Origin: Fimbriimonas sp.
GTDB taxonomy: Bacteria; Armatimonadota; Fimbriimonadia; Fimbriimonadales; Fimbriimonadaceae
DNA: 58,713 nt
Assembly: GCA_029866005.1 (NCBI GenBank)
Contig: JARXAE010000031.1
Coordinates: forward strand, 1-58,713
Reading direction: 5' to 3'
The notes under the pieces: model-generated
Databases searched by the model: none
What the model saw: the letters and a program-made list of their open reading frames with translations, nothing else
Told to the model about the DNA's origin: nothing
Program-made: the position numbers and the translations under genes
Shown: piece by piece, positions 37,394 to 46,720 of the stretch
Numbering within the stretch: the first letter of the stretch is position 1
Layout of the letters: each line of letters begins with the position of its first letter

Positions 37394-37632
37394 GTATTTC
37401 GTTTCATTGCCCTCCGCAAAAGGTCGAGGGCGACCTTGAGACGGTCAAACGCCTCCCGAAAGTCGTCGAACTGAGTCTGAATCTTCGAACGAGCCTCCGG
37501 CGCGACTTTGATGATCGCTTCATTCAGCTCATCGAACTTCTGCTTAGCGTTCTGGGTGGCGGCGAAGACGCCAATAATCGCGCCCAATGCTCCTCCCAGC
37601 CCCAGGCTCGATGCAATCTGAAGCCAGTCCAT
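37390..37632 (-). CDS. Small membrane/coiled-coil protein in the capsid module
   Basis: 80 residues from the ATG at 37632: a Gly-rich membrane segment (about 5-24) then a charged helix (AKQKFDELNEAIIKVAPEARSKIQTQFDDF). The ATG overlaps the capsid stop (TAATG), so it is coupled to the gpT-like gene. It resembles its neighbour in layout but not sequence. No function can be assigned. Confidence 0.55.
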   Translation of the reverse strand: MDWLQIASSLGLGGALGAIIGVFAATQNAKQKFDELNEAIIKVAPEARSKIQTQFDDFREAFDRLKVALDLLRRAMKRNT

Positions 37633-38537
37633 TAGAGTTCGATTCCTCCTCCGAAAACGGTCTGCCACATTCCCGGTCCCGCGTTGTAACGAGCCCGAAC
37701 CCCGTAGTAGAAGCGGTCATGAAAGAACGCCGAATCAGAGCCCTTCGCTGACTCCAGAGCCGCAAACTCAACCGGAACGTCGCTCCTCTGCTGGAGAATA
37801 ATTCCCCGCATCGGTCGAGTCGTGTCGAGCAGGTACCACGACTCATCGGTGATGAACGGAGACAGCACAACTTTGAGCATGCCGTTAAACACGTTCACTT
37901 GCCCCGAAGACTGAACGGTGCCCTTGCTGTCCACAAGTTCGATCGCCGTCCACATGTTTTGCGGACCAACCAACAGTACGTTCGGCGCAATGCCGAGGGG
38001 AACGCCTTCGTTGTCGCGCCGCGAGATCATAGCCGAGCACGCAGCTTTCAGGCCCGCCGAACCGAGCGCATCCGCGCTCACATTCGAAGCGGTACCCCCA
38101 GCTTCGGGATGGTCAGCCGCAAGGAGGTTTGCGCCATCGTAGCCAAGAATGCTTGTCCCATGAGTCAATGTGTTGACAACCAACTCGTGGCGGTGGTGCA
38201 CAACTCGGTTCGCAAGGTCCCGAATCCGTAAACGGATGAGGTCAAGCTGATCGTCTTCGAGCGCCTTCCGCTCGACGGCAATCGTCGATTCAAACACCTT
38301 ATCTTCGATGCTAATCGCCTGACTCGTCAGGCCCGTGGCGCGTCGCTCATCCACAAACTCGCGCATCGCCGGAGCGTTGTCTAGAAGTGGGTACCGCTGC
38401 ACGGGAAGAGTGGTCTGAATAACGGTGGCGAGCTGGGAGACGACGTCGGCTTGTTGCTCGTTTCGGTACGCGAGCGCAAACTCGGCTTTCAGACCAGGAA
38501 GAAGAAGATCGGGGATATCAGATTTGGTAAGTGCCAT
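37632..38537 (-). CDS. Mu gpT-like major capsid protein
   Basis: 301 residues. The pattern matches the Mu-like major head subunit gpT: ISIEDKVFESTIAVERKALEDD near residue 75-96 (Mu has NKTFEGTVGISRDDFEDD), GYDGANLLAADHPEAGG near 132-148 (Mu: YDGQNFFDKEHP), LVGPQNMW, and the C-terminal FYYGVRARYNAGPGMWQTVFGG. It would form the HK97-fold shell. Neighbours (protease upstream, decoration protein) are right for a phage head operon. Confidence 0.85.
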   Translation of the reverse strand: MALTKSDIPDLLLPGLKAEFALAYRNEQQADVVSQLATVIQTTLPVQRYPLLDNAPAMREFVDERRATGLTSQAISIEDKVFESTIAVERKALEDDQLDLIRLRIRDLANRVVHHRHELVVNTLTHGTSILGYDGANLLAADHPEAGGTASNVSADALGSAGLKAACSAMISRRDNEGVPLGIAPNVLLVGPQNMWTAIELVDSKGTVQSSGQVNVFNGMLKVVLSPFITDESWYLLDTTRPMRGIILQQRSDVPVEFAALESAKGSDSAFFHDRFYYGVRARYNAGPGMWQTVFGGGIEL

Positions 38538-38539
38538 GG

Positions 38540-38965
38540 TTACTTGGTGTGATTGTCGATTCGTATTCGGTATCCGCCGAGATTGTCGGAGGTTGATTCA
38601 GTGCCGACGATGGTGCCGATGATGTAGGCGTTCGTCAAGCCAGTTGCAACGTCTTGAACCTCGCCATCAAACTTCGCCCAAGCGTCCCCGCCGGTCTTGT
38701 TGACATTTGCCGAGGCGGTGGCGAAAACAAAAGTGCCCGACTTGGTCACGGTGATTCGCTTGGTCTCCGTCGTGGTGACGACTGACTCGTTCGCGACGCC
38801 GACGAACTTGAGATTCGCACTGGCGTGACTCATCGGAACAATGTTTCCAGATGCATTGACGCCGATAAGGGCACCTTTGAAGATGGTCGTGTTTGTACCG
38901 ACGTTGTAGCTCACAACGATTCCCGGCTTTTCGTATGTTTCGAATGGTTTGGTAAGTGCTGGCAT
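38540..38965 (-). CDS. Capsid decoration-like protein
   Basis: 141 residues, all-beta by pattern (IVVSYNVGTNTTIFKGALIGVNASGNIVPM, FVFATASANV), with Asn/Thr/Val richness typical of phage head-decoration (DUF2190-type) proteins. Position between protease and capsid genes, 2 bases from the capsid start, agrees. Exact family not certain. Confidence 0.65.
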   Translation of the reverse strand: MPALTKPFETYEKPGIVVSYNVGTNTTIFKGALIGVNASGNIVPMSHASANLKFVGVANESVVTTTETKRITVTKSGTFVFATASANVNKTGGDAWAKFDGEVQDVATGLTNAYIIGTIVGTESTSDNLGGYRIRIDNHTK

Positions 38966-38971
38966 GGTTTG

Positions 38972-39871
38972 TTAGCGCCGTTTGGCGATTTCTTTGAGGT
39001 CAACTCCAGGGAAGTGGCGGCGATAGAACGCCGACTCCTCGGGCAGAAGAAGGTTAAGGGCTGATTCGTGATCGGCGGCGGCCGGTGCCTGCTGGCTGAA
39101 GATGTTCGCTTTCGGGAGGTCTTCAAGGAGCTTGCCGACTAACTCCGCGACTGGCTGCCCGTCGATCTCGGCTTCACAAGCGAAGAGCAGCGCAGCAACC
39201 TTCGCCTGACGAGGCACAAGCTGCCCGCTATTCACCAGCTTCTCCACCCGATTTCCCGCTTCTTGCTTCCTACTTTCCGCTTGCGCTTGGTGAGCCAGCT
39301 TGGCGTAGTCAACGTCCGCAAAACCACTACTGAACAGCGGTCTGGTGTCGAAGAGGCGAGCCGACTCTACCCGGGGATTCCGGACGACACTCACTTCGCG
39401 AATATGCTCAAGATCGCGCTCAAGGCCTACGGAGAGGCTCTGTGCGCCACTTTTGATGAGTAACTGATCTGCCTCTCGGGTGAGGGCGATCAGACCAGAG
39501 AGGTTTGCACCGTCGGCATCAACCGCGATGAGGAAGCCTAGGTGAAGGGGCGAGTCGCCGTGCTCGATGAGGACGGGGACGGGAAGGTCGAAGTTGGCGG
39601 CAATGGCTTGCAGATTTTCTGTCGAGACGGAGACGCCCTTATCCGGATAATCCCCAGCCTCAAAGAGCTTGGCGCGCCGCTCGACCCAACTGGTGGGGTG
39701 AGTGAGGTACGCCGGAGCCTGGATTCCGTGGGTTCGAAACTCTGCCACCATAGCAAGGCGGGTTGCCTCGCTGACTTCGTTTCGTGTTCCTTGGTATCCC
39801 GGACCCGCAAGGGCAGCCCGCCGTAAGAGGTCGAGTCGCGCCTCGGCGACCGTTGTGTCGTTTGCGATCAT
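38972..39871 (-). CDS. Mu gpI-like prohead protease/scaffold
   Basis: 299 residues. The protease part has VLIEHGDSPLHLGFLIAV, with the catalytic-type His, then LLIKSGAQSLSVGLERDLEHIREVSVVRNPRVESARLF, where Ser and the VSxVRNP segment match the Mu I / prohead protease pattern. The C-terminal 110 residues are helical and charged, as expected for an attached scaffold. It would process the capsid during head assembly. ATG at 39871 is preferred; a GTG at 39877 lies inside the promoter. First gene of the module. Confidence 0.78.
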   Translation of the reverse strand: MIANDTTVAEARLDLLRRAALAGPGYQGTRNEVSEATRLAMVAEFRTHGIQAPAYLTHPTSWVERRAKLFEAGDYPDKGVSVSTENLQAIAANFDLPVPVLIEHGDSPLHLGFLIAVDADGANLSGLIALTREADQLLIKSGAQSLSVGLERDLEHIREVSVVRNPRVESARLFDTRPLFSSGFADVDYAKLAHQAQAESRKQEAGNRVEKLVNSGQLVPRQAKVAALLFACEAEIDGQPVAELVGKLLEDLPKANIFSQQAPAAADHESALNLLLPEESAFYRRHFPGVDLKEIAKRR

Positions 39872-39877
39872 AGTCAC

Positions 39878-41469: not shown

Positions 41470-41475
41470 ATGGTG

Positions 41476-41760
41476 ATGGACGAGCAAGTGAGAACAGCAA
41501 TTCTGGAACTCCTGCCCCAGCTCCGCGAGCTTGGGGTGACGAGCCTTAGCGTCTTCGGCTCGGCCAGCCGCTCCCAACTCCGCCCAGATTCGGATGTGGA
41601 CGTTCTCGTCGAACTTGGGATCGACAACCAAGAAACCTACTTCGCAGTTCTCTTCATGCTCGAAGACAAACTGGAGCGGAAAGTTGACCTAGTATTGCGC
41701 GATACCCTCCACCCCAGAATCAGAGATCGGGTAGTCAGTGAGGCCGTCCGTGTCGCGTGA
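41476..41760 (+). CDS. MNT-type nucleotidyltransferase antitoxin
   Basis: 94 residues. The minimal nucleotidyltransferase motif GSASRSQLRPDSDVDVLVEL (GS...DxD) with a third Asp later (KVDLVLRD). MNT proteins of HEPN/MNT pairs neutralise the HEPN toxin, in studied cases by adding AMP to it. The next gene overlaps by 11 bases and encodes the HEPN protein, so the pair is complete. An upstream ATG (41470) adds two residues. Confidence 0.9.
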   Translation: MDEQVRTAILELLPQLRELGVTSLSVFGSASRSQLRPDSDVDVLVELGIDNQETYFAVLFMLEDKLERKVDLVLRDTLHPRIRDRVVSEAVRVA

Positions 41761-42088
41761 CGAGCATCTTTACCTAGACGACATCATAGAGCGATGTGAG
41801 CGGCTCACATCGTGCTTTGGCCCCGATTTTTCGAAGCGCTTCTTGTCAGATCCAATGTTTCATGACGGAGTACTCATGCAACTTACTGTGATCGGAGAAG
41901 CAGTAAAAAACGTGTCGAAGTCGCGCAAAGACGCTCATCCTGAAATCCCTTGGCGAAAGATAGCTGGACTAAGAGACATCATTGTCCATGTCTATTATGG
42001 TGTTCGGGACGAGTACATTCTTGAAATCATCGAGAAGGACATTGAAACTCTGCACAAAGTCGTGACGGAGATGAGCGAGTCCATTTGA
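41750..42088 (+). CDS. HEPN-domain (DUF86) toxin
   Basis: 112 residues, all helical. RDIIVHVYYGV contains the RxxxxH active site (R-DIIV-H), the RNase motif of HEPN toxins. SRDEHLYLDDI at the start matches DUF86 relatives, so I prefer the GTG at 41750 over 41738. The pair with the MNT gene is a classic toxin-antitoxin module. Its TGA overlaps the TTG start of dtd. Confidence 0.88.
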   Translation: MSRDEHLYLDDIIERCERLTSCFGPDFSKRFLSDPMFHDGVLMQLTVIGEAVKNVSKSRKDAHPEIPWRKIAGLRDIIVHVYYGVRDEYILEIIEKDIETLHKVVTEMSESI

Positions 42089-42540
42089 GAGCCATCGTCC
42101 AACGCGTTTCTGCCGCCACCGTCCAAGTCGACGGAAGGGAAGTCGGCCGGTGCGGGCGTGGCCTGCTACTCCTCGTCGGAGTTCATAAAAACGACACTCT
42201 TGACCAAGCCAAGAAGCTCGCCCTAAAGATCAGCACCCTAAGAATCTTCAACGACCACGAGGGCAAAATGAACCTCAGCATCCAGGATTTCAAAGACGAA
42301 CCCTACGAGATTCTTGCCGTCAGCAACTTCACCGTCTACGGTGACGCAAAGAAGTCAAACCGCCCAAGTTTCACCAACTCCGCCCCCTATTCCCATGGTG
42401 AAGAACACTTCCACGCTTTCGTCAATGAACTAAGAATCCTCGGAATCCTGACCCAAACCGGCACATTTGGTGCAGATATGCAAGTCTCACTTATCAATGA
42501 CGGCCCGGTAACGGTTATCCTAGATGTAGACGCCGCATAA
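42085..42540 (+). CDS. dtd: D-aminoacyl-tRNA deacylase
   Basis: 151 residues. Dtd removes D-amino acids wrongly attached to tRNAs. The opening MRAIVQRVSAATVQVDG, SNFTVYGDAKKSNRPSF (family: SQFTLYAD...RPSF, with Asn for Gln here) and the Gly-cisPro loop DGPVTVILD are present. The start is TTG in a TTGA overlap with the HEPN stop, fixed by homology to the family's first residues. Being coupled to a toxin-antitoxin pair is unusual for this housekeeping gene. Confidence 0.95.
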   Translation: MRAIVQRVSAATVQVDGREVGRCGRGLLLLVGVHKNDTLDQAKKLALKISTLRIFNDHEGKMNLSIQDFKDEPYEILAVSNFTVYGDAKKSNRPSFTNSAPYSHGEEHFHAFVNELRILGILTQTGTFGADMQVSLINDGPVTVILDVDAA

Positions 42541-42600
42541 AACCGAAACGCACGCCATTCCCGTACGTCCATTCCTATACAAAACAAGGACGGACCGAAG

Positions 42601-43218
42601 ATGGCACGAACCCTAGCAATGAGCCTTAGAACCGCGATCAGCACGAAGATCGATGACGATTCAGATGAATCGCTCGTCAAGCGTGCCCGTGACGGTGACT
42701 ACGCCGCTTTCGAGCAGCTTTTCGAGAGGCATCGCCTCATGGTCTACCGGTTCTCTTACCAAATGACTCATAAGCGCGACGATGCTGAGGATCTGGTTCA
42801 AGAGGCCTTCGTGCGTGCATACCAAAATTTGCACCGCTACCGCGACGAAGCAAAGTTCACCACCTGGCTCCTTCGTATCGTCAGCAACCTCGGAACCGAT
42901 CAAGCTCGAATGAGCACCCGGCGCAACAATCTGGAGCAGAAAGAAGCTCAGGGCGCCCTTGACTGGATGACGGTTGGGAACTTTGAGAATCCAATCGCAA
43001 ACCTGGAACAAGATTCGCGACGGAATATCCTCAGAAAAGCGATCCTCGCCCTGCCCGACCATCATCGCCAAATGATAATCATGCGGGATTTGGAAGAGAG
43101 GGAATACGACGAAATCGCTGAGATTTGTAATTGTAGTGTGGGCGGAGCTAAGCTCCGCGTATTGCGAGCCCGACGCGCACTTCGGGACCGGGTAACCCCC
43201 ATGTTAGGAGAGCTATGA
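42601..43218 (+). CDS. ECF-type RNA polymerase sigma factor
   Basis: 205 residues. Region 2 at about 38-105 (FEQLFERHRLMVYRFSYQMTHKRDDAEDLVQEAFVRAYQNL) and region 4 at about 145-200 (LPDHHRQMIIMRDLEEREYDEIAEICNCSVGGAKLRVLRARR). Group IV sigma, no extra domain. The next gene overlaps by ATGA and encodes a membrane protein that is probably its anti-sigma. The gap upstream has GAAACG and CGTACGTCC about 15 bases apart, reminiscent of ECF promoters, so autoregulation is possible. Confidence 0.95.
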   Translation: MARTLAMSLRTAISTKIDDDSDESLVKRARDGDYAAFEQLFERHRLMVYRFSYQMTHKRDDAEDLVQEAFVRAYQNLHRYRDEAKFTTWLLRIVSNLGTDQARMSTRRNNLEQKEAQGALDWMTVGNFENPIANLEQDSRRNILRKAILALPDHHRQMIIMRDLEEREYDEIAEICNCSVGGAKLRVLRARRALRDRVTPMLGEL

Positions 43219-44021
43219 AGAACTGGAAGAACGATGACGAACTGCTTAACCTTGCCTTTGGCGAGCTGAGCGACCGTGACTCCCAAGCATTTGAAGCGAA
43301 GCTTCTGGGTGATGCTTCAGCTCAAAAGGAACTTGAACTTCTCCGAACTTTGCGATCTGACTTCACCGCTATCCGAGACGACATCCCCGAGATGCAGTTT
43401 AGCAAGGAGCGCCTTCGCGAAGCGATCCTCGCGTCTGGCAAGCCCGCTCGACCAGCCACCAACTGGCTGAACTGGGTTCTTGGTCCAGCCGCAATGGCAA
43501 GCGTTGCTGCGCTTGCGTTCGTCATGATGAAGGGCACGGGCTCAAAAGAAACTGTCTTTGTGGCTTCGAACACGAAGCCAGCTGTGGAAAGAGTTTTGCC
43601 AAGTGTCGAAATCAAGCCACCGGCGGGATTGACGGAAGATCGAGTCGCAATGAACACTCAACCTGGTCAAAGCGAAGTTGCCGACAATTCCCAGAGTCTG
43701 CCCACAAGCGTCAAGCAAACGGTCTCTAAAAAGTTTAAGTCGTCGGGCAAGCGATCTCGAACCCGAACGAACACCTCGATCCTCGTCGCCTCTCGCGACG
43801 AAGCAAAGCCACCAATCAGCGCAGTTTCGAATCCAACATCAGGACGAGAAGTGAGTACCGATGACGCGGCGATCACTGCGGCCGTTCCTTCCGCTGCGCT
43901 AGCCCAGCCAACCAGCGACACATCACCGATCATTCTCATCGACGCCAGAACCGACTCCGGTGTCGGTGCCCCGACTGCGACGGAGGTCCGCAACCCAATC
44001 AATGTTGCTATCGGCGGTTAA
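43215..44021 (+). CDS. Putative anti-sigma factor, single-pass membrane protein
   Basis: 268 residues. The N-terminal 80 residues are helical and acidic (DDELLNLAFGELSDRDSQAFEAKLLGD, an anti-sigma-like pattern without the zinc-binding HxxxCxxC), then a membrane segment at about 87-106 and a Ser/Thr/Pro-rich outer part. ATGA overlap with the sigma gene. It probably holds the sigma factor at the membrane and releases it on an external signal. The 3' end overlaps the PDZ gene by 20 bases. Confidence 0.7.
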   Translation: MKNWKNDDELLNLAFGELSDRDSQAFEAKLLGDASAQKELELLRTLRSDFTAIRDDIPEMQFSKERLREAILASGKPARPATNWLNWVLGPAAMASVAALAFVMMKGTGSKETVFVASNTKPAVERVLPSVEIKPPAGLTEDRVAMNTQPGQSEVADNSQSLPTSVKQTVSKKFKSSGKRSRTRTNTSILVASRDEAKPPISAVSNPTSGREVSTDDAAITAAVPSAALAQPTSDTSPIILIDARTDSGVGAPTATEVRNPINVAIGG

Positions 44022-45051
44022 TCTAGCCTTCGCCCTTGGAGTACGAACCCAGTTCACGGGACCGGAGGTTGTCACAATCAACAACCTCCGCCCTGCCTTA
44101 GCGTACATAAAATTGGGTGCGGTTAACTTTGGCGCGGTCGCCTTTATCACCAAGGATGGCTATGCCGTCACCCACCAACTTAGCCTCGGCGCGGGGGCAA
44201 AGGAACTTGTCACCTCCAGCGGCGAGAAGCTCAACTTCACCACTGTTCACAAAGACACGCCATCACAACTCGTGCTCATAAAAACCACAAAGGTTCCAAG
44301 CAAAGTCGAGACGGTGAGTTGGGCAGATGACACCGATGGCGGACGCGGAATGATTCTCGCCGTCCTCCCAACCGGAACTGTTCGCGCCGAAATCACCTCA
44401 TCCGAGCGCATTGGCGTGGACGACCGCAGCCGTCGCGCCGTTCCCATGAACGAAGTTCGAATCGAACAGACCCCAACTGCCATCGGTGGAGCCCTGCTGT
44501 TTAGCGGTAAAGGACGCCTGATCGGTTCGATTGCGGCAACTCTAGCCGTCGCCCCCGGTTCTGTCTCGCAAGATCAGAGTCGAGTTGGAAACCAGAACGC
44601 CGGACTTCAGTCCAACGTCAACGCAAAAGTTGCAGCGTTCGGACCCACGGGTCTTGTCGTTGGCTACACGCCAACCTGGGAAGTGACCAAACGAGCAATC
44701 GCCGGATTCCTCACGCCGGGACACAAAGCCCCAACCGCCCTCCTCGGCGTGCTCATCGTCAACTCCCTTGGCGGAGTCAGCGTCCAGCAAGTCGATGTTG
44801 ATTCACCTGCTGCTCAAGCCGGAATCCTCGTCGGTGATGTCATCTCCGACATCGGCGGAAAAAAAATTCGAGACCAAATCGACTTTGCGCGTATGACCTA
44901 CGACTTTAAACCCGGCGACAAAGTGGCGATCCAGATCCAGCGCGGAAATCAGAAAATCACCCTCGAAGCCACGCTCGGAGCGCAGTCTACACAGCTCGCC
45001 GAACGTCGGCTAGCTTCCATTGAAGCGACTCTTGCCCCTGGTAAGTATTGA
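44002..45051 (+). CDS. PDZ-domain protein with a degenerate HtrA-type protease domain
   Basis: 349 residues. A short N-terminal hydrophobic stretch (1-14), a trypsin-like fold (about 25-215) and a C-terminal PDZ domain (about 245-340, LGVLIVNSLGGVSVQQVDVDSPAAQAGILVGDVISDIGG). All three catalytic positions are lost: VTHQL for VTNNHV, PSQLVLIK for TDLAVLK (Gln89), and TAIGGALLF for GNSGGPLL (Ile161). It cannot be an active serine protease of this family. With the sigma/anti-sigma pair it may sense envelope peptides. Its 3' end overlaps convergent recJ by 65 bases. Confidence 0.8.
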   Translation: MLLSAVNLAFALGVRTQFTGPEVVTINNLRPALAYIKLGAVNFGAVAFITKDGYAVTHQLSLGAGAKELVTSSGEKLNFTTVHKDTPSQLVLIKTTKVPSKVETVSWADDTDGGRGMILAVLPTGTVRAEITSSERIGVDDRSRRAVPMNEVRIEQTPTAIGGALLFSGKGRLIGSIAATLAVAPGSVSQDQSRVGNQNAGLQSNVNAKVAAFGPTGLVVGYTPTWEVTKRAIAGFLTPGHKAPTALLGVLIVNSLGGVSVQQVDVDSPAAQAGILVGDVISDIGGKKIRDQIDFARMTYDFKPGDKVAIQIQRGNQKITLEATLGAQSTQLAERRLASIEATLAPGKY

Positions 45052-46720
45052 GCTGAGGCTCGAAAGCCACATCCACCCGGTCACCTGACCGCAGCTCGCT
45101 CATCGCGGCAAACATCCCCCAGCCAACGCACCGTACGGTTCCGCCCGAGTGCTTCAGGGTCAGAGCGATGTGCTGGCGCTCCTGGCCCATTGACTTAATA
45201 TAAAGCACCTCTAGATTCTGCGCACCAAAGATTGGCTTAGGATTCATCATCCCAAAAGGCTCCAAAGCAGAGAACTCGTCAATCGAGCTTCGATCGACTT
45301 TTGCTGGATCAACAAACGCCGCAATCTCCAAGGAAGGGAACAGGTCCTCTGGACTCAGCGTTGCGATAGCATACGAGTTAAACGCAGCTCGAATCTCCTC
45401 TAGGTGCGCCTCAGGGAAGCCAATGCCCGCTGCCATTGCATGCCCCCCACCTTGCACCAGCGCCGGGTGAGCAGAAATCAACTCCGCAAGGCTAAGTCCC
45501 GGAATCGAGCGTCCACTTGCTTTCCCCTTGCCAGTTTCAGGATCAATGGTTCCCGCAAATACTGGTCTTGCATAATGCTCCTTCAGCTTGCCCGCAAGCA
45601 GTCCGACGATGCCGGGATGCCACTCGGGATTGAAAACCATGATCATGTGCTGATCCTTTCCGCCCTGCGCTTCGGCCTGAGCAAACGCCTCCTCAAACAT
45701 CAGATCCTGCATCGCCCGACGATCCAAGTTGTGTTTATCAAGCTCAAGCGCAACGTCGCGTGCTTCGGTGGCATCTTCGGTCAACAGCAAACGCAACGAC
45801 AAAGCCGCATCGTCAATTCGGCCCGCCGCGTTCAGTCGGGGTCCGAGCTTGAATCCGACGTCGTAAGACATCACCTTCCCGCGAATGTCGGAGACCTCTT
45901 TAAGTGCAACCAACCCCTTCTTCTTCGTATCCGTGAGCTTCTCCAGCCCAAACCGGGCAATGATCCGGTTGTCGCTGCTGAGGGGCATCACGTCGGCAAT
46001 GGTGCCGAGTGCGGCGAGATCGACGAAGTTCTTGCGGTAAGAATCAACTCCCTTCTCATCAAGCGATCGCGTGAGTCCCTCGCACAACCGATAAACAACT
46101 CCTGCGCCCGACAAGTGAGAGAAAGGATATCGCGAATCTTTGCGGTGCGGATTCACCACAGCCTGTGCCTCCGGAAGCGTCTCTTTCAGTTCGTGGTGAT
46201 CAGTAACCACCACGCGCATTCCCAGTTCTCGCGCCTTGAGAACTTGAGCGTGGGCGGTGATGCCGCAGTCGCAAGTCAAAAACAGCTTCGCTCCCCGTTC
46301 GTGCGCAGCGTCGACCGCCGAGAGATTGATTCCGTACCCCTCGTTTATCCGGTGAGGAACGTGCGTGTGGACGTTGCAGCCAATCTTCTTCAGATAGCGA
46401 TCAAAGATCGCCGCCGATGTAACGCCGTCAACGTCATAGTCGCCGTGAACATAGATGAGCTCTCCTCGCTCTTTGGCTCCAAGAATCTCGTCTCGCGCGG
46501 CATCAAAATCGGGTAGCAAGAACGCATCGCCAAGGTCATCCAAAGACGGATTCAGGAACTTACTTGCGTCTTCTGGCGAAGCGTAACCTCGCTGAATCAA
46601 CACCTCCGCAGTTGAAGCAGAGACTCCAAGCTCAGCAGAGAGCCGTCCCGCGGCTTCCGGATCGGGAGCGGTGACTAGCCACCGTTTGCCGGTAAGCGAA
46701 AGCTGAAGTGGGCTTGACAT
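44987..46720 (-). CDS. recJ: Single-stranded-DNA-specific exonuclease RecJ
   Basis: 577 residues, normal length. 5'-3' exonuclease of repair and recombination. DHH motifs HGDYDVDGVTS, CDCG and VVTDHHE, the DHHA1 GGGHAMAAG, and the C-terminal OB-like domain (MGQERQHIALTLKHSGGTVRCVGWGM) are all present. ATG start has no clear ribosome binding site. The C-terminal 21 codons are antisense to the end of the PDZ gene. Confidence 0.96.
   Translation of the reverse strand: MSSPLQLSLTGKRWLVTAPDPEAAGRLSAELGVSASTAEVLIQRGYASPEDASKFLNPSLDDLGDAFLLPDFDAARDEILGAKERGELIYVHGDYDVDGVTSAAIFDRYLKKIGCNVHTHVPHRINEGYGINLSAVDAAHERGAKLFLTCDCGITAHAQVLKARELGMRVVVTDHHELKETLPEAQAVVNPHRKDSRYPFSHLSGAGVVYRLCEGLTRSLDEKGVDSYRKNFVDLAALGTIADVMPLSSDNRIIARFGLEKLTDTKKKGLVALKEVSDIRGKVMSYDVGFKLGPRLNAAGRIDDAALSLRLLLTEDATEARDVALELDKHNLDRRAMQDLMFEEAFAQAEAQGGKDQHMIMVFNPEWHPGIVGLLAGKLKEHYARPVFAGTIDPETGKGKASGRSIPGLSLAELISAHPALVQGGGHAMAAGIGFPEAHLEEIRAAFNSYAIATLSPEDLFPSLEIAAFVDPAKVDRSSIDEFSALEPFGMMNPKPIFGAQNLEVLYIKSMGQERQHIALTLKHSGGTVRCVGWGMFAAMSELRSGDRVDVAFEPQLNTYQGQESLQWKLADVRRAV

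Follow-up and report, generated by a model that had tools for sequence, protein, structure and literature searches.

Gene layout of the operon

The window, the whole stretch of 58,713 nucleotides that was analysed, is one complete contig (G000:C38) of a 2.8 Mb genome. It contains an operon with overlapping genes, in which an ECF sigma factor is followed by a membrane anti-sigma factor that lacks zinc ligands and by a catalytically dead protein of HtrA fold with a PDZ domain (Table 1). The first-pass annotation had described this trio at 42601-45051, with the HtrA-like gene chained to the sigma/anti-sigma pair. Its boundaries are right and the three genes are confirmed, and both junctions are gene overlaps, of 4 nt between the sigma and anti-sigma genes and of 20 nt between the anti-sigma and HtrA-like genes. 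The longer overlap suggests translational coupling. The trio is kept across an order and recurs across the phylum.

Table 1. Positions in the window of the operon, its elements and the adjoining genes
Feature	Position	Strand	Basis or remark
D-Tyr-tRNA deacylase gene	42085-42540		directly before the promoter-like element
Putative autoregulatory ECF promoter	42545..42569	+	GAAAC (-35-like) + 16 nt + CGTC (-10-like)
ECF sigma factor, 205 aa	42601..43218	+	Pfam regions 2 and 4; 41-97% identity to 28 aligned orthologs
Membrane anti-sigma factor, 268 aa, without Cys or His	43215..44021	+	sequence, alignment, AlphaFold model
Cytoplasmic anti-sigma domain, helices (aa 4-56)	43224..43382	+	pLDDT above 90 over most
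Predicted transmembrane helix (aa 83-107)	43461..43535	+	hydrophobic helix in model; topology inferred
Extracytoplasmic linker, disordered, poorly conserved (aa 110-235)	43542..43919	+	pLDDT mostly under 50; alignment-variable
Conserved anti-sigma tail (aa 237-268)	43923..44018	+	predicted beta-hairpin, then ..NVAIGG-COOH
Coding overlap of anti-sigma end and HtrA-like start, 20 nt	44002..44021	+	
Dead HtrA-fold protein, one PDZ, 349 aa, probably exported	44002..45051	+	ATG 44002, stop 45051
Catalytic His position, now Leu60	44179..44181	+	alignment to active HtrA of same genome
Catalytic Asp position, now Gln89	44266..44268	+	alignment to active HtrA of same genome
Motif R145..P148..E151-x-R153-x-E155, leading into dead active site	44434..44466	+	40 non-f2 sequences
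Nucleophile Ser position, now Ile161 or Gly162	44482..44487	+	one-column alignment dependence
PDZ domain (aa 247-325), invariant carboxylate-loop glycine G249	44740..44976	+	PDZ_2 match
recJ	44987-46720	convergent	downstream of HtrA-like gene

Sigma factor and promoter

The first gene encodes sigma-70 regions 2 and 4 within a short protein, as expected of an ECF factor (Pfam Sigma70_r2 5e-18, r4_2 7e-13; TIGR02937 above cut-off). Self-driven promoters are usual for ECF sigma factors. Of 51 distinct loci, 45 have the pattern G[TA]AAC-N16-CGTC upstream of the sigma gene, where mononucleotide shuffles predict 0.21. The putative promoter here is the sole GWAAC-N16-CGTC match in the window, where 1.39 would be expected by chance, and is thus unsurprising in the window alone. 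By itself the pattern occurs too often by chance to delimit a regulon. The conserved sigma promoter is among the new elements of the operon.

Anti-sigma factor

No family profile recognized the anti-sigma above its cut-off: Pfam gave no match, an NCBIfam anti-sigma model matched weakly (7e-5), and a profile of the protein found nothing among PDB sequences. Zero Cys and zero His occur in its 268 residues, and therefore it has no zinc site of the usual type and no HxxxCxxC stretch such as zinc-binding anti-sigmas (ZAS) carry, in line with the first-pass claim that zinc ligands are lacking. The anti-sigmas of families f2 and f12, read by eye, do carry an HxxxCxxC-like stretch. The AlphaFold model predicts a membrane anti-sigma, with a cytoplasmic helical domain and one transmembrane helix.

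The part of the protein conserved outside the cytoplasmic domain is a C-terminal tail that sits behind a disordered linker of 125 residues. Mean column identity is 52% in the tail (25 rows) against 28% in the whole anti-sigma (14 rows, another set), and the model places two strands in it (residues 239-246 and 253-258) with modest confidence (pLDDT about 55). In families f1 and f5 the tails end in ..V-x-[IVF]-G-G. Counted back from the end of the chain, the last residue (-1) is Gly in 36 of the 41 tails of f1/f5 type and residue -2 is Gly in 37; Val stands at -5 (33 tails), Glu at -12 (34), Ala at -14 (37) and Gly at -18 (31). This set includes L063 (f3), whose end differs. Cut, split or near-duplicate sequences (L008, L036, L039, L047, L048, L050, L051, L054), duplicate loci and loci without the dead HtrA were left out of the count; the excluded L008 and L047 also end in GG.

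Other lineages have other ends. All 7 f2 tails finish in Ser-Phe, which resembles a PDZ ligand; those of f8 finish in ..GAVE or the like, that is in Glu, in a single genus where kinship alone may explain it; and those of f12 finish in ..SAY/SPY and ..KAW. The f8 and f12 operons, which lack the overlap of anti-sigma and HtrA genes, have repeated ends of their own. Tail class and PDZ sequence vary together between families, over few independent events. Searching the own genome with the tail profile at E up to 10 returned the anti-sigma only and no second copy, and we dropped the idea that other envelope proteins share the tail as competitors.

Some of this conservation can have a nucleotide-level cause. 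The HtrA-like ATG lies inside tail codons and a GGAGG inside the ATEV codons, and such a ribosome-binding-like stretch and the next start codon (ATEV, NV) can explain part of the tail conservation. Each of the last two anti-sigma codons begins at a base that is a wobble position in the HtrA-like frame, and this base is G in 37/40 and 35/40 loci, against 31% at the other wobble bases of those genes; p-values for this bias take no account of kinship among the loci. The bias shows that the anti-sigma protein end is under selection, and that selection does not act on the gene overlap alone. In loci with the HtrA start at another place (L017, L034, L035, L070) the ..GG end persists, and the conserved strand PIVLI, like the TGA motif, is located upstream of the overlap. 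We count the conserved anti-sigma tail, too, among the new elements of the operon.

Further observations concern the anti-sigma stop region. The stop codon in the overlap is TAG in 30 of 40 loci, TAA in 10 and TGA in none; this bias would arise if the HtrA frame favours Ser or Asn over acidic residues. Six of the seven f2 anti-sigmas (L043, L045, L049, L052, L053, L055) end TCT TTT TAG with the HtrA frame at +1, a sequence that resembles a +1 slippage site and could fuse anti-sigma and HtrA. Such a programmed +1 frameshift would not fit the f1/f5 ends. Anti-sigmas beside an active HtrA end in Arg (L251 ..GYSR, L059 ..SLR, L061 ..GWR, L093 ..YYR), unlike those beside a dead one; that of L203 ends ..FGF.

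A protein of HtrA fold without its triad

The third protein has the chymotrypsin-like fold followed by PDZ that typifies the HtrA/Deg family. Structure prediction, which the first-pass annotation had proposed as a check, gave an AlphaFold model with pLDDT 80 and pTM 0.74, built on 14 rows, whose fold is that of MucD, DegS and Rv1223. Foldseek (E about 2e-19) placed MucD first, VIA gave Z up to 24 with Rv1223 (about 24) among the best, and the matches of the two programs, which include MucD, DegS, Rv0983 and Rv1223, span residues 12-338. In sequence searches phmmer aligned residues 44-327 with HtrA/DegP chains, and Pfam PDZ_2 matched at 59 bits (5.8e-16); Trypsin_2 gave no match to the window protein at E up to 1, and matched 22 of 46 orthologs at E up to 0.01. 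A hydrophobic N-terminus suggests that the protein is probably exported.

The catalytic triad is absent. Leu60, Gln89 and Ile161 or Gly162 occupy the His, Asp and Ser positions, which bears out the loss read in the first pass, and the protein would thus lack the catalytic machinery with which a DegS-type site-1 protease cleaves its anti-sigma. What precedes the former nucleophile is well conserved: among the 40 non-f2 sequences R145 is found in 37, E151 in 38, R153 in 33 and E155 in 38. This E-x-R-x-E motif beside the dead active site is another new element. The PDZ domain, as the first pass had also read, is retained. All 46 members match PDZ_2, and all 46 have G249, which from PDZ structures we take to belong to the carboxylate-binding loop; the loop glycine of a DegS-type PDZ sensor is therefore in place.

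Spread and maintenance of the dead HtrA

We surveyed 61 genomes, the own genome and 60 relatives from families f1-f5, taking the best locus of each. A dead HtrA was found in 59; of the two exceptions, G010 gave only an active paralog, and in G053 the contig ends after the anti-sigma. The first-pass annotation had held that orthologs with an intact triad, or a lack of association with sigma factors elsewhere, would speak against it, and neither was encountered. Among 58 readable dead HtrAs, His is kept in none, Asp in 9 and Ser in 4 (the Ser count depends on the alignment by one column). In 55 of the 59 dead-HtrA genomes a sigma gene sits just upstream in the same orientation, which rules out a chance neighbourhood, and in the other four (G009, G052, G057, G060) the contig ends 4 to 1045 nt away. 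One genome with 4% contamination, G059, has two dead-HtrA loci (L043, L049) and may be a mixture.

A phylum search added 14 further f1 genomes with sigma and dead HtrA as well, while the reduced f1 genomes G228 and G232 are without a sigma ortholog and gave only weak HtrA matches. Dead-HtrA operons recur in two further Armatimonadota families. In f8, outside the order, the 9 genomes fetched of 10 listed have sigma, anti-sigma and an altered HtrA (His to Asp, Asp to Asn, Ser kept). In f12, six loci in four genomes have the same layout, with His replaced by Asp or Glu and Ser again kept (for L268-L270, L274 and L275 the triad was judged by eye). The loss of catalytic residues is thus not uniform: f8 and f12 retain Ser, as do 4 of 58 relatives, and 9 of 58 retain Asp. 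A sigma-only search of the other families of the phylum was unspecific.

Between close species, dN/dS is 0.045-0.067 for the dead HtrA, 0.02-0.03 for the sigma factor and 0.16-0.19 for the anti-sigma, as approximate values with dS near or above 1. With a ratio of about 0.05-0.07 the HtrA-like gene is under strong purifying selection and is not decaying, and with open frames across an order this rules out a pseudogene. Several independent losses of catalysis are likewise unsupported: a quick tree of 30 dead and 20 active sequences, built on columns that include the catalytic positions and with long branches for five of the dead rows, separates active from dead on one branch with SH-aLRT 100 and needs a single change. 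The catalytic loss is old and maintained.

Proteolysis genes elsewhere in the genome

The same genome encodes a second ECF operon, L251 (678-4317), whose four genes are a sigma, a zinc-finger anti-sigma, one left unnamed and an active HtrA that has two PDZ domains. The third gene was considered as an RseB/MucB, but it matched no profile and no PDB sequence. The genome also has another active HtrA (L001), an M50 site-2 protease homolog, S41 peptidases and 19 sigma region-4 matches. Catalysis has therefore not been lost from the cell, which has the components that regulated proteolysis needs; the dead HtrA comes in addition to these, as a specialised extra. The first-pass suggestion that it acts in place of a DegS-like protease needs care, given the active HtrA of L251.

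A proposed non-catalytic switch

We lean towards the view that the dead HtrA serves the anti-sigma as a dedicated partner without catalytic function, holding or shielding its tail and sensing a competing ligand. The operon would then be an autoregulated envelope-stress switch. At rest the ECF sigma factor would be held by the cytoplasmic domain of the anti-sigma, as is general in this family of regulators. The anti-sigma would cross the membrane and present outside a long disordered linker bearing the hairpin-plus-C-terminus tail, for which the exported, non-cutting HtrA-like protein would be the receptor, binding it in the PDZ groove, in the cleft of the former active site or in the two together. 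In the bound state the tail would be protected, a task that falls to RseB in E. coli. Once the HtrA-like protein is occupied by misfolded envelope proteins or by some other ligand, the anti-sigma would be freed for a real protease and then the site-2 protease, and the released sigma would drive its own operon from the GAAAC-N16-CGTC promoter. The computed support for this scheme comprises the operon, promoter conservation, the catalytic loss, purifying selection, conservation of PDZ loop and tail, and the M50 gene. The first-pass idea of a peptide-binding decoy or sensor fits this evidence and is sharpened by the tail, G249 and the motif; the binding itself, as well as the shielding, the ligand, the export and the order of cleavages, we infer.

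The tail is a natural candidate ligand of the dead HtrA. In a more specific form that we offer tentatively, the anti-sigma would carry a built-in C-terminal PDZ ligand, the dead HtrA would keep the switch off, and the ends of misfolded proteins would compete. With similar reserve, the ligand end may vary by lineage (..GG, ..SF, ..AY, ..AW), the PDZ changing alongside. The main doubt about a tail lodged in the PDZ is the f1/f5 end: to our knowledge C-terminal Gly-Gly is not a usual PDZ ligand, and therefore the f1/f5 tail may bind elsewhere or bind another protein.

That last option leads to a reading in which the tail serves another protein, an S41-type C-terminal protease or an envelope protein, as a signal for recognition or processing, and the dead HtrA works as a co-transcribed chaperone for clients of its own. 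S41 peptidases in the genome, the oddness of Gly-Gly for a PDZ and the ability of HtrA proteins to act as chaperones favour it; we nevertheless consider it unlikely, as tail and dead HtrA are near-always neighbours and are missing together, and as families with a different tail class also have a different PDZ sequence, if over few independent events. Since the two are nearly always found together, however, co-occurrence cannot show contact. It is quite unlikely, in our estimate, that the dead HtrA instead partners an active HtrA, L251 or L001, and switches its activity against the anti-sigma. Both active genes are available in the genome, yet nothing links them to the dead-HtrA operon, and the L251 copy sits in a sigma operon of its own. 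There is a precedent for a non-catalytic HtrA aiding an active one: in the accessible part of its source, the HtrA pseudoprotease MamO is reported to promote MamE proteolysis without a triad of its own (PMC4794232).

The conserved anti-sigma end might also act chiefly at the level of RNA or translation, as a signal that couples the HtrA-like gene to the anti-sigma gene; the ATG and GGAGG embedded in tail codons and the prevalence of TAG, as the HtrA frame would favour, could be cited for this. We hold this to be very improbable, because the PIVLI strand and TGA motif lie outside the overlap, ..GG outlasts a displaced HtrA start, G is favoured at HtrA wobble bases, and operons that lack such an overlap have repeated ends too.

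Relation to known systems

Envelope-stress sigma systems are textbook examples of regulated proteolysis, with the cutting done by the HtrA-fold member, and operons of sigma, anti-sigma and HtrA are already known. In Pseudomonas AlgU-MucA-MucB-MucD, one operon holds sigma, anti-sigma and an HtrA-family gene whose product, MucD, is an active protease; MucD is our top Foldseek match, and the L251 operon of the window's own genome is the nearer counterpart. Mycobacterium tuberculosis Rv1223 is encoded beside sigE and rseA in the same order of sigma, anti-sigma and HtrA. It is among the best fold matches (Z about 24) and keeps its triad, unlike the window protein.

In E. coli, according to the accessible part of one source, the PDZ of DegS reads the C-termini of misfolded outer-membrane proteins and thereby unleashes RseA cutting, and RseB binds RseA and must leave before cleavage (PMC8103513). 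The operon described here shares with RpoE-RseA-RseB-DegS-RseP an ECF sigma factor, a membrane anti-sigma, an envelope protein of PDZ/HtrA fold and a site-2 protease. It differs in that the HtrA-fold partner is triad-less and encoded in the sigma operon, and in that the conserved C-terminus is on the anti-sigma itself. By this analogy, the operon fits a system in which the HtrA-fold protein is reduced to the half that senses or shields.

MamO of magnetotactic bacteria is likewise an HtrA-fold pseudoprotease with a non-catalytic role; it differs in binding metal and serving magnetite formation, and no sigma operon is described in the accessible part of that source (PMC4794232). HtrA pseudoproteases are thus already known, and what appears new is their union with a sigma operon and a conserved anti-sigma tail. 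A literature search that was short on most subscription journals found no paper on a dead-HtrA sigma operon with such a tail, and the accessible part of a mycobacterial HtrA paper (PMC12735335) has no combination of this kind.

An operon kept throughout a lineage therefore retains the HtrA fold and the PDZ, drops catalysis and has a conserved anti-sigma tail. If tail and dead HtrA bind, the sensing half of an HtrA works without the cutting half, and the tail peptide and the dead HtrA would be a simple pair for testing PDZ sensing apart from proteolysis. If the competition reading holds, the logic of DegS would have shifted from cutting to competition.

Neighbouring genes

The HtrA-like gene and the convergent recJ overlap tail to tail at their 3' ends over 65 nt (44987-45051). 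A nucleotidyltransferase and HepT-like pair (41470-42088), which we take to be the MNT/HepT toxin-antitoxin layout, immediately precedes the deacylase gene and with it the sigma operon. Three phage head genes on the minus strand (37632-39877) adjoin the region, encoding a major head protein (phrog_371, 8e-54), a virion structural protein and a head maturation protease; they are a prophage or its remnant.
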